Below, piece after piece: positions 13,169 to 63,322 of a stretch of DNA of 64,000 nt (positions are counted from its first letter, which is position 1; each line of letters opens with the position of its first letter). The translations under genes were made by a program, and so were the position numbers. Source of the stretch: Phycisphaeraceae bacterium (GTDB lineage: Bacteria; Planctomycetota; Phycisphaerae; Phycisphaerales; Phycisphaeraceae); the NCBI GenBank assembly GCA_002686995.1, contig NYZC01000352.1:1-64000 (forward strand), written 5' to 3'. The notes beneath the pieces are model-generated. The model was not told the origin of the DNA. It ran no database searches and was given only the letters and a program-made list of their open reading frames with translations.

Positions 13169-14782
13169 ATGCGCGCATGCCTCTCGTGCTTTGCGATTTT
13201 GTGTTCGTCGCTGCTCGTGCCTGTTCTCGATGACGCCGTCGCGGCGCCGTTCGCCGATCATGGCGGCGCGGAGTTGTCCGTCGATGGCCCGGTGCTCGCT
13301 CCGATCCGCCACAAGCCGATGTGGATCAATGAGCGCGACCAGTTCGGTTACAACCCGCGCTATCCCGCCGCGCCCGTCACGTTCGGACCGGACAACCGGC
13401 CGTACATCTGGGACGGCGACGAGCTCGTGACGCTGAACGAGGAGGGCCGCTGGATCTCCCTGGAGGTCGTGCAGAAGGTGCAGGCGAAGTATGGCGGGAT
13501 TGCCGGCGGGCCCGGGGCGAACGATCCCTTCCTCGGATTCGACGCCGACGGCGACGCTTACCTGCTCGTCCGCCTGATCCTGGAACGACAGGACGTCTTC
13601 CGCGACTCGGCTCCGCAGCGCGTCGACGCGTTCGGGTTCCTGCACTCCGGTGACGGGATGCAGTCCTGGACCTTCGTCGAGACGCATCCGGTGTCGTGGT
13701 ACAGCGCGACCGGGCCGTTGCCGCGCAAGCTCTACCTCGGTCCCGGGCGTCTCGAGCACTGGCAGCCGAACAGCCAGGTCACCGGACCGCCACCGATGGT
13801 CGAGGGGCGCGGGCGCGAACTGGCGCTCTACCTGCCGCAGAAGAACGAGGACGGTTCGATGGGGCCGGTGAAGCGGCTTGTCGTAGCCGGGGTGAAGCCG
13901 CCGGTGGTGGGCAAGGGGCGCAACTGGATCACGCCGCTGCACTCGGGCGCCGGCAACGTGTCGGCGACGTACGGCGGCAGGACGCACGTCGTCTGGCTCA
14001 GCATCCAGCCGCACGAATGGCACAAGGAGCAGGTCGAGGCGCTGTCGGCCGAGATGCAGGGGCCCTACGTTCCCTACGCATTGCGCTACAAGGACGGGCT
14101 CGACGCCTTGGCGCCCCAATACATCCGGACGTATGACCACGCGACCGGCGAGCTGGGACCTCGGGTCCTGCTGGGGTTTTCGCGGCGCGACAATCATGAC
14201 GGACCGGTAATCGGCGTCGACTCGAAGGGCTACCTGCACGTGATACTCGGGGCGCACCACGACAACTTCCAGTACACCCGGTCGCTCGAGCCCAACAGTG
14301 CGACCGGCGGCTGGACCGAGCCGATCATGTTCGGCACGCCGCGCCCGGCGAAGGGCGGAGGTAGCTACACCTACCAGGCGATGGTCATCGACCGCGAGGA
14401 CGTGATCCATCTCGTCAGCCGTAGCGCCGCCAACAGCGGGTACTACTTCAACCTGGCCTACAACCGGAAGAAGCCCGGAAGCGACTGGGAGCCGGAGGTG
14501 GTGCTCGTGCACCCGTTCCGTCCTGGCTACTGCGCGTGGCGACAGAAGCTGACCACCGATCGACTCGGGCGGCTCTTCCTCAGCTACGCCCACTACCCGT
14601 CGGAGCTGACCGGCGAGCAGAAGGCCGCGTACCACAGGAAGTATCCGCAGTTCAAGGGCGGCATTCGCGAGACCGGCCACACCGTGCTGATGTCGGACGA
14701 CGGCGGTGATTCGTGGCGGCTGGCGCTGACGGGGGATTTTGTGGAAGGGTGGCGGAGGGGGAAGGAGGGCACGGGAAATTAA
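13169..14782 (+). CDS. BNR-repeat (BNR_4-type) secreted protein, tandem copy 1
   Basis: Signal peptide; DHGGAELSVDGPVLAPIRHKPMWINERDQFGYNPR; stop codon TAA at 14780-14782 lies in the palindromic repeat. Confidence 0.8.
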   Translation: MRACLSCFAILCSSLLVPVLDDAVAAPFADHGGAELSVDGPVLAPIRHKPMWINERDQFGYNPRYPAAPVTFGPDNRPYIWDGDELVTLNEEGRWISLEVVQKVQAKYGGIAGGPGANDPFLGFDADGDAYLLVRLILERQDVFRDSAPQRVDAFGFLHSGDGMQSWTFVETHPVSWYSATGPLPRKLYLGPGRLEHWQPNSQVTGPPPMVEGRGRELALYLPQKNEDGSMGPVKRLVVAGVKPPVVGKGRNWITPLHSGAGNVSATYGGRTHVVWLSIQPHEWHKEQVEALSAEMQGPYVPYALRYKDGLDALAPQYIRTYDHATGELGPRVLLGFSRRDNHDGPVIGVDSKGYLHVILGAHHDNFQYTRSLEPNSATGGWTEPIMFGTPRPAKGGGSYTYQAMVIDREDVIHLVSRSAANSGYYFNLAYNRKKPGSDWEPEVVLVHPFRPGYCAWRQKLTTDRLGRLFLSYAHYPSELTGEQKAAYHRKYPQFKGGIRETGHTVLMSDDGGDSWRLALTGDFVEGWRRGKEGTGN

Positions 14783-14836
14783 GCTATTAGTTGTTAAGCC
14801 AATGGTTATTCGTTGTTTCGGACTCGGTTTTCGACG
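14779..14836 (+). repeat. half copy (copy A) of the ~105-bp palindromic repeat
   Basis: TTAAGCTATTAGTTGTTAAGCCAATGGTTATTCGTTGTTTCGGACTCGGTTTTCGACG aligns with the left arm and centre of the 50141 copy; no right arm present. Confidence 0.8.
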
Positions 14837-16364
14837 TGTGTCTGCGCCGTTCGTGGTTGCCGTGTTTGCGATCGCAGCGACACCGACCTTCGCGGCGCCT
14901 CCGTCGTTTACCGATCACGGCGGGGCGGAGCTTTCCGTCGACGGTCCCGTCTTCGCGCCGATCAATCACGAGCCGAACTACGTCACCGAGCGCGAGCTTT
15001 TCGGTTACAACCCGCGGTTCGTGCCCAGCGCGGTCAGCTTTGGACCTGACAACGAGCCGTACATCTGGCGGGGCACGTACCTGATCACGCTGAATCGCGA
15101 CGGCAGGTGGATCGTGCTCGACACGTCGAAGGCGATTCGAGAGAAGTACGACGACATCGCCGACAACGGCCACGTGGCGGCGTACGATCCGCACCTGGCG
15201 TTCGACGTCGCCGGGGACGCGTACATGGTGGCGCGGCTCGGACCGATGCGCAGCGACCCGAACGAGTTCAAGTACGGCATGCTGCATTCGACGGACCGCT
15301 GTCGGACCTGGACGTTCTACGAGACGCCGAACCGGCCGGAACGTCTGGAACGCCGCGAAGCACACAATCCGTTACCCGGTCCGCCGCCGCTGGTCGAAGG
15401 TCGGGGACGCGAGCTGAACCTGGTGACGTTCAGGAAGAAGGGCGACGGCACGCTGACCAACGCCAGGCTGACGGTCGTGGCGAAGGTCATCCCGCCGGTC
15501 GTGCGGAAAGGGCGGCACTGGATCACGCCGGCGCACTCGGGATGCGGCAACGTGACGGCCACGATCGGAAGCAGGACGCACGTGGTCTGGTTCAGCATTC
15601 AGCCCCTGTCGTTCCACCGCGAGGCCGCCGAGAAGTTGCCGACGGAAATGCAGGGGCCGTACGTGCCGTACGCATTGCGATTCAAGGACGACGGGCTGGA
15701 GGCGCTTGCCCCGGCGTACGCCGCCACGTTCGATCACGAGACCGGGCAGGTGACCGAGCCGATCATCATCGGCTTCACCCGCCGCGACAGGCACAACGGC
15801 CCGGTCATCAGCGTCGACTCGAAGGGCTACCTGCACGTGATCATCGGCGCGCACGGCGACAACTTCCTGTACACGAAGTCGCTGAAGCCGAACAGCACGA
15901 CCGACGGCTGGACGGAGCCCTACATGTTCGGCACGCCCAACCCGCCGCGCGGAGGCGGCAGCTACACCTACACCGGCACGGTGATGGACGGTGACGACAC
16001 GCTGCACCTGGTCAGCCGGTTCAGCGGCAGCGGGAATCACTTCCGGCTCACCTACAACCGCAAGCCGATCGACGGCGCATGGTCGTCGAACTTTTACCTG
16101 GTCAATCCGGGGCGGGTCGACTACAGCGTCTGGTACCACCAGGTGAACATGGACCGGCGCGGACGCCTGTTCGTCAACTACTGGAAGTATGTCGCCCGCC
16201 TGCGCCCCGGCGAGATCGAGGCCTATCGCCGCAAGTATCCTGACGACGATTACCGCAAGGAGAACGGGCGCGAGGTGGGGCTGCGCCGTCACGATCCGTG
16301 CATGCTGATCAGCGAGGATCAGGGGCAGACCTGGAGGATCGCCGTGACCGAGGATTTCCGGTAA
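14802..16364 (+). CDS. BNR-repeat (BNR_4-type) secreted protein, tandem copy 2
   Basis: DHGGAELSVDGPVFAPINHEPNYVTERELFGYNPRF; signal peptide MVIRCFGLGFRRVSAPFVVAVFAIAATPTFA. First plausible ATG (14802) lies inside repeat copy A. Confidence 0.8.
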   Translation: MVIRCFGLGFRRVSAPFVVAVFAIAATPTFAAPPSFTDHGGAELSVDGPVFAPINHEPNYVTERELFGYNPRFVPSAVSFGPDNEPYIWRGTYLITLNRDGRWIVLDTSKAIREKYDDIADNGHVAAYDPHLAFDVAGDAYMVARLGPMRSDPNEFKYGMLHSTDRCRTWTFYETPNRPERLERREAHNPLPGPPPLVEGRGRELNLVTFRKKGDGTLTNARLTVVAKVIPPVVRKGRHWITPAHSGCGNVTATIGSRTHVVWFSIQPLSFHREAAEKLPTEMQGPYVPYALRFKDDGLEALAPAYAATFDHETGQVTEPIIIGFTRRDRHNGPVISVDSKGYLHVIIGAHGDNFLYTKSLKPNSTTDGWTEPYMFGTPNPPRGGGSYTYTGTVMDGDDTLHLVSRFSGSGNHFRLTYNRKPIDGAWSSNFYLVNPGRVDYSVWYHQVNMDRRGRLFVNYWKYVARLRPGEIEAYRRKYPDDDYRKENGREVGLRRHDPCMLISEDQGQTWRIAVTEDFR

Positions 16365-19202: not shown

Positions 19203-19230
19203 TTCGCGCGAATCCTCAACTGCTGATTGC

Positions 19231-19316
19231 CTGTACCCGTGCCCGTGCCTGTGCCTGTACCCGTTCCCGATCCCGTTCCCGATGCACGGGCACCGGCACG
19301 GGCACGGGTACGGGGA
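19231..19316. repeat. hexamer-period (CCCGTG) array folding into a 22-bp inverted repeat
   Basis: TACCCGTGCCCGTGCCTGTGCC (19234-19255) vs GGCACCGGCACGGGCACGGGTA (19289-19310): 21/22 complementary. Confidence 0.85.
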
Positions 19317-49331: not shown

Positions 49332-50144
49332 ATGGTCAGCGACAGAGATATCTATTTTTTCGACCTGCAGGGCTTTCTGCACCTGCGCGGCGCGCTCTCC
49401 GGGAATGAGGTCGCCGCCCTGAACGATGGGATCGACGCGATTCCGCCGCTCGAATCCGGACAGTGGCACGGCAGCATCCAGGCGCACGACTACGGCACGA
49501 ACGACGGGCTGAACCTGCAGCAGATTTACGAGGCGGGAGAGCCCTTCGAAGCACTGATCGACCATCCGTCGTGGTACGAGCGGGTGCGTCACTTCGTGGG
49601 CGGCGAGGGGACGTTCGACTGCTATCACGGACCGGTCTTCATCGACGAGGCGTTCGCGACGCTGCGCGGACCGGGCGAGGCGATCGGCGTCCACAACGGC
49701 GGGCACCTCGGCCTGATGCGCTGCCAGTTCCGCGTCCTGCACGGCAGGTTTCATTGCGGTCAGATCAACATCCTGATCGCGCTGTCGGACATTCACGAGG
49801 GCGATGGTCCCACGATGCTGATTCCCGGAAGCCACAAGTCGAACTTCGCACACCCGGACTACGACGACTTCGTCATGGCGCCGGGTCGTTCGGTGGACGG
49901 AATGGAGGGAGCGATCGAACTCTTCATGGACGCGGGCGACGCGCTGCTCTTCGTCGATGCGATCTCGCACGGTTCGGCGAAGCGCACGAATCCCGCAATG
50001 CGCCGCACGATCGTGTACCGATACGGCCCCTCGTGGGGAAGCTATCGCCACGCGTACCGGCCGTCGCCCGAGCTGCTGGCGCGGCTGGCGCCACAGCGCC
50101 GGAAGATCGTGCAGCCGGTGGATCCGGTGGAGCCTCCTCATTAA
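49332..50144 (+). CDS. phytanoyl-CoA dioxygenase family protein
   Basis: INILIALSDIHEGDGPTMLIPGSHKSNF, LLFVDAISHGSAKRTNPAMRRTIVYRYGPSW; TAA stop lies in the palindromic repeat. Confidence 0.88.
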   Translation: MVSDRDIYFFDLQGFLHLRGALSGNEVAALNDGIDAIPPLESGQWHGSIQAHDYGTNDGLNLQQIYEAGEPFEALIDHPSWYERVRHFVGGEGTFDCYHGPVFIDEAFATLRGPGEAIGVHNGGHLGLMRCQFRVLHGRFHCGQINILIALSDIHEGDGPTMLIPGSHKSNFAHPDYDDFVMAPGRSVDGMEGAIELFMDAGDALLFVDAISHGSAKRTNPAMRRTIVYRYGPSWGSYRHAYRPSPELLARLAPQRRKIVQPVDPVEPPH

Positions 50145-50246
50145 GCTATTAGTCGTTAAGCCAATCGTTATTGGTCATTTCGGACGCGGTTTGCGACCCG
50201 ATTCTGATATGACCAATAACGATTGGCTTAATGACTAATAGCTTAA
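50141..50246. repeat. 106-bp palindromic repeat, full copy B
   Basis: Left arm TTAAGCTATTAGTCGTTAAGCCAATCGTTATTGGTCAT; reverse complement of right arm TTAAGCTATTAGTCATTAAGCCAATCGTTATTGGTCAT (37/38 identical). Confidence 0.92.
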
Positions 50247-63217: not shown

Positions 63218-63322
63218 TTAAGCTATTAGTCATTAAGCCAATCGCTATTTGTCGATTTGGGCGGGTCTCCGAACGCGGTCCGAAATGACAAACAACGATT
63301 GGCTTAATGACTGATAGCTTGA
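63218..63322. repeat. 105-bp palindromic repeat, full copy C
   Basis: TTAAGCTATTAGTCATTAAGCCAATCGCTATTTGTC ... GACAAACAACGATTGGCTTAATGACTGATAGCTTGA. Confidence 0.9.

Follow-up and report, generated by a model that had tools for sequence, protein, structure and literature searches.

A half repeat at the junction of two BNR genes

The window analysed here, a 64,000-nucleotide stretch of contig NYZC01000352.1 from a Phycisphaeraceae bacterium (assembly GCA_002686995.1), carries two tandem genes of the BNR_4 family (PF15892), which score 34.7 bits (gene 1) and 41.9 bits (gene 2), both above the Pfam gathering cut-off of 27.3 (Table 1). Their junction is occupied by a sequence termed copy A, of which the outer 27 bp (TTAAGCTATTAGTTGTTAAGCCAATGG, 14779-14805) match, with two to three mismatches, the arms of two further copies in the window, copy B (from 50141 on the forward strand and from 50246 on the reverse strand) and copy C (from 63218, forward strand). 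Similarity to the full element extends to about position 14836, and dinucleotide shuffling gave an expectation of zero for such an arm match.

The initial annotation had described copy A as a half copy of a repeat. Indeed, copies B and C are whole palindromes of 105-106 bp that fold as DNA far better than their shuffles (z -14.8 and -10.1, respectively), and copy A is a left half without the right arm, forming no hairpin (z +1.3). The TAA near its outer end, already proposed as the terminator of gene 1, was confirmed as the in-frame stop of the 537-residue reading frame; judged from the sequence, donation of this stop codon by the repeat is certain. The frame of gene 2 is open through copy A, and the earlier estimate that its first 12 or so codons come from the repeat agrees well with the extent of repeat similarity, which covers 11-12 codons from ATG 14802.

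Table 1. Features at the gene junction and related repeat copies (window coordinates, except for the last entry, which gives locus labels).
Feature	Position	Strand	Basis or remark
Half copy A (106-bp palindromic element reduced to its left arm and loop)	14779-14836	+	Sequence match, folding
Stop codon of BNR gene 1 (TAA at 2-4 of the element)	14780-14782	+	In-frame end of the ORF
Probable start codon of BNR gene 2 (ATG at 24-26 of the element, CCAATGG variant)	14802-14804	+	
BNR gene 1, PF15892 BNR_4, 537 aa	13169-14782	+	Signal peptide by inspection
BNR gene 2, PF15892 BNR_4, 520 aa from ATG 14802	14802-16364	+	Residues 1-11/12 probably from the repeat
Full copy B, between convergent genes	50141-50246		TAA 50142-50144 ends PhyH-family gene 49332-50144
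Full copy C, between divergent genes	63218-63322		
Contig ends with an apparent intron in the element	L015, L017, L028, L031, L035, L040:4295, L078, L079, L081, L082, L086		

A lineage-restricted family of palindromic elements

Searching the 7.8-Mb source genome (446 contigs, 88% complete) with the arm gave 65 forward and 62 reverse matches, and none with a reversed-pattern control. A covariance model built on 24 copies returned 110 two-strand matches in the same genome, about 57 of which are full copies; 93% of the stem positions pair across copies, and 12 pairs carry changes on both sides, compared to 4.8 in shuffles. The element is 106 bp long with arms of 44 bp and has no gene of its own. 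Chance similarity or an assembly artefact as the source of copy A is hardly credible given the shuffling result and the more than 120 arm matches genome-wide; nothing was found in favour of either, and although contig ends in this assembly coincide with repeat copies, copy A lies well inside its contig.

Each arm places stop codons in two of the three inward reading frames within its first 12 bases. The consensus has TAA at positions 2-4 in frame 2 and TAG at 10-12 in frame 1, with frame 3 open to position 96, and the opposite strand of the palindrome gives the same pattern.

No arm match was found in any of 50 other genomes of the family, no exact 20-mer of the element in the scan of the GTDB collection, no match in plasmids and phages, and no Rfam match over the window. 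The covariance model did find cousin palindromes in two genomes of the same order (G045 and G049; loci L128, L129 and L130), suggesting from their sequences that the order hosts a wider class of heptad-patterned palindromic repeats. By inspection, the arms of these long palindromes consist of degenerate words of about seven bases, such as ATTAGGC, ATTTGTC and ATTTTCC. In our reading, the 106-bp element is lineage-restricted and MITE-like. A separate GTDB scan for relatives of gene 2 gave 11 stretches that fitted the search patterns, none of which was confirmed.

The flanks of full copies are purine-rich on the left (71% in the last five bases) and pyrimidine-rich on the right (69%), a bias that could extend the hairpin or mirror a target preference. 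At another locus (L042), a short series of CAGCCATTAAG-like units in tandem forms the outer flank of the half copy at 1599 and may have arisen from the arm. The window also contains, at 19228-19314, an inverted array of short 6-base units (TGCCCG.. / CGGGCA..) with 29-nt arms separated by 27 nt.

Placement at gene ends

Genes were called around 68 full or half matches with a home-made codon scorer, of which the predicted 3' ends are reliable and the starts are not. Outer ends of the element facing the 3' end of a gene (n=55) lie at a median of 6 nt from the stop codon, with 44 of the 55 within 15 nt, the corresponding proportion for random intergenic points being 38%. The stop codon falls inside the element at 18 of these 55 ends, and in 10 it is the same TAA that terminates gene 1; copy B ends its upstream PhyH-family gene in this very way (Table 1). 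Ends facing a gene start (n=42) lie at a median of 36 nt. The element thus takes up positions at the 3' ends of genes, where it frequently serves as the stop codon, and this family-wide placement argues that the stop donation at 14780 is both real and typical. It can do so because its arm has stops in two frames and leaves the third open.

The start and N-terminus of gene 2

Read from ATG 14802, the product of gene 2 begins MVIRCFGLGFRRVSAPFVVAVFAIAATPTFAAP; this would be a credible signal peptide with three Arg residues in its n-region, which is unlike the n-regions of the paralogues. By sequence inspection, 37 residues would then precede the conserved DHGG motif, equal to the number in the minus-strand paralogue on contig C38 counted from its own ATG. 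The predicted structure around ATG 14802 is weaker (-12.6 kcal/mol) than around GTG 14838, 14853 and 14862, the other start candidates (-16.4, -20.0 and -21.8 kcal/mol). Taken together, gene 2 probably starts at ATG 14802. The initial annotation had singled out this codon as the first good start; it remains the best candidate but is not the sole one, given the GTG codons and an upstream frame open to TTG 14739 within gene 1.

A competing reading is that the repeat donates the stop codon and an intergenic spacer only, with gene 2 starting at GTG 14838 or another internal GTG. The third frame of the arm is open in the consensus, so that an open frame through copy A needs no selection; several GTG codons lie downstream, and the best start according to the codon-score caller is 14862. 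The caller's choice carries little weight, however, because it also trims the signal peptide of gene 1, and a protein beginning at 14838 (MSAPFVVAVFAIAATPTFA, MSAPFVVAV..) would have a signal peptide with no basic residue in its n-region. The same reading draws on the absence of a Shine-Dalgarno motif before ATG 14802, while gene 1 and two genes on contig C38 are preceded by Shine-Dalgarno-like sequences. This is weak counter-evidence, since in the window such motifs precede 37% of called starts and 29% of random positions, a small enrichment. We regard a GTG start as unlikely, though it is the most serious of the alternatives.

The ATG itself had been attributed to a C-to-G change relative to copies B and C. 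The ATG is present as described, but the change is not specific to this locus: of 90 sampled arms, 13 carry CCAATGG and 15 an ATG at that position, with compensation on the other arm in some full copies (pair 26/82). The change is a common, standing variant of the arm rather than an innovation peculiar to the 14779 locus. A degenerate full copy with CCAATGG was also observed at L026:1563-1694, where the frame is open through the whole element into the downstream gene, and a possible N-terminal extension would be read wholly from the repeat.

Paralogues and the tail of gene 1

A 3' tail of gene 1 (VEGWRRGKEGTGN) had been reported as absent from its tandem paralogue. Gene 2 does lack it, yet the paralogue C38:9964-11529 possesses it, with its C-terminus DFIAGMQRWREKK aligning with DFVEGWRRGKEGTGN of gene 1, and no element match was found at the C38:9964-11529 locus. 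The tail as a product of the repeat was therefore rejected, being common to a paralogue at a repeat-free locus. On this alignment it is a trait of a subfamily, of which at most the last few residues would have been altered when the repeat took over termination.

A comparison with repeat-free loci, proposed earlier for orthologues, was run on paralogues only. The element was not found in the fetched loci of three BNR paralogues (contigs C38 and C168), and the N-termini of all four paralogues, gene 1 included, are unrelated. Different N-termini at loci without the repeat agree with a repeat-derived N-terminus in gene 2.

Other half copies and a group II intron

Genome-wide, 36 half matches were recorded, 15 at contig ends and 21 elsewhere. 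Taking all of them as real breakage was rejected, as the 15 at contig ends are truncated by the contig end, interrupted by an intron, or complete though degenerate, and the remaining 21 include degenerate full copies, leaving about 16 true halves by reading. In eleven of the contig-end matches the element gives way to an end of a group II intron that appears to be lodged in its loop, and the assembly breaks there (Table 1; RF00029 with 33.2 bits and E 0.001, a score under the gathering cut-off). Its 5' end directly follows CATTTCG(G) and exists in at least two variants, beginning GTGCGCCGTGTAACC and GAGCGCCGGTTAACC. No intron reverse transcriptase was found in the assembly, as expected if multi-copy introns collapse at contig ends.

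A second half copy, L040:1476 (G000:C255:3275), takes up all 40 nt between two genes: the upstream TGA directly adjoins the element, and element position 40 adjoins the ATG that starts a PhyH-like gene. The Met encoded by this ATG aligns with the Met of two homologues from another genus of the family, whose 60-bp regions upstream of the start contain no element; the leader at L040:1476 consists entirely of the half arm. At C187:28902 (L037), another half copy gives TAA to one gene and sits just before the start of the next. On the strength of these two cases, bridging from stop to start by a half arm recurs in this genome.

It could be asked whether such half arms are kept as useful A/T-rich, unstructured leaders that couple the translation of both genes. 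The exact fit at L040:1476, from stop to a homology-supported ATG, speaks for this, as does the finding that, of the half copies lying off contig ends and having both neighbouring genes called (n=20), 12 are between co-directional genes, eight of the 12 with an intact outer end at the upstream stop. The numbers are nevertheless small and the call criteria simple, tandem arrangements prevail in the background too (67 of 106 intergenic regions), and the same facts are explained by passive decay of a tolerated insertion, making selection for a leader a doubtful account of copy A.

Relation to known repeat systems

Gene ends donated by repeats have precedents elsewhere. In Yersinia YPO1552, RU-2 accounts for residues 1-30 and for part of the predicted signal peptide (Delihas 2007, PMC2759123), and RU-1 (ERIC) removes the normal stop codon of ECA3499, extending the gene (PMC2759123). 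The enterobacterial RU-1, RU-2 and RU-3 MITEs resemble the 106-bp element as short repeats fusing to genes; they differ in sequence and host lineage, and here a single half copy ends one gene with its stop codon and probably provides the start of the following one. In Coxiella, several genes overlap QMITE1 or QMITE2 at their C-terminal ends, by 1-50 bp, and QMITE2 copies are hot spots for IS1111 (PMC5896051). The QMITEs share the location at gene 3' ends and are unrelated in sequence, and the invader of the loop here is a group II intron instead. Rickettsia palindromic elements of about 150 bp add coding sequence to proteins of their hosts (reviewed in PMC2229807 and PMC10969869), sitting in frame inside genes, whereas none of the sampled copies of the 106-bp element lies inside a called gene.

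The element is shorter than about 500 bp, non-coding, multi-copy and bounded by terminal inverted repeats, in common with MITEs. Formal membership of that class does not follow from this, as no target-site duplication turned up and no parent transposon is known, nor was an IS or transposase with the same ends seen in an assembly that breaks at repeats: flank identity at 2-10 bp equalled that of shuffled pairings, with at most one exact match in 30 copies, and a TA could still be hidden in the terminal TTAA as the duplication. We conclude that the repeat family is new and that, MITE-derived stop codons and signal peptides having already been published (RU-2/YPO1552, QMITEs), the copy A junction is a new example and not a new principle.

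REP/BIME palindromes are likewise many-copy and intergenic, some lying within 15 nt of a stop codon; they are targets of insertion sequences and, in Pseudomonas putida, also of some group II introns (PMC12306157; PMC1525189). Their units are 20-40 bp long, compared to the 44-bp arms here. Mobilisation by a RAYT, as for REP/REPIN sequences, has no support, given this arm length and the absence of the element near the Y1 transposase genes in the fetched Y1_Tnp loci. According to PMC12306157, citing Liang et al. 2015, ribosome stalling has been reported for E. coli REPs that lie no more than 15 nt from a stop codon, and most 3'-facing ends of our element fall in this range. Copy A might by this token be a REP-like translation or mRNA-stability element at the 3' end of gene 1, but it has no pairing arm and folds no better than shuffles, which excludes the role at this junction and leaves the idea very improbable here; full copies could play such a part.

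Proposed origin of the junction and implications

Combining the anatomy of the locus with the behaviour of the family, we propose that an element inserted at 14779, either in the gap separating two tandem BNR paralogues or at their edges, where its TAA became the stop codon of gene 1. The right arm and some of the loop would then have been lost, joining the open frame of the remaining arm to the 5' end of the signal-peptide region of gene 2; the resulting anatomy is seen directly, and the order of events is our reconstruction. With the right arm gone, ATG 14802 no longer lies inside a 44-bp hairpin, and it probably took over from the original start and n-region of gene 2. Initiation may proceed from an A/T-rich leader without a Shine-Dalgarno sequence, perhaps aided by ribosomes that finish translating gene 1 at its stop 19 nt upstream. 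Overall, we assign a probability of roughly 0.7 to copy A being a decayed half element that provides the stop codon of gene 1 and the probable start codon and n-region of gene 2, the latter two being likely donations on the sequence evidence.

A broader and much more speculative possibility is that the element is a stop-ended gene-boundary module, retained for capping upstream genes, whose one-armed forms become the leader or start, and sometimes the N-terminus, of the downstream gene, so that decay of the repeat would time and again give this lineage new stop-to-start junctions and signal-peptide n-regions.

The stops in two frames of each arm suggest why such repeats concentrate at gene ends, and the junction is a practical warning for start-site annotation in the source genome. 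At one small locus, a mobile-looking palindromic repeat appears to have become coding sequence at both its ends, and if half-arm leaders are functional, this would represent a simple route for selfish DNA to create signal peptides and translation starts.
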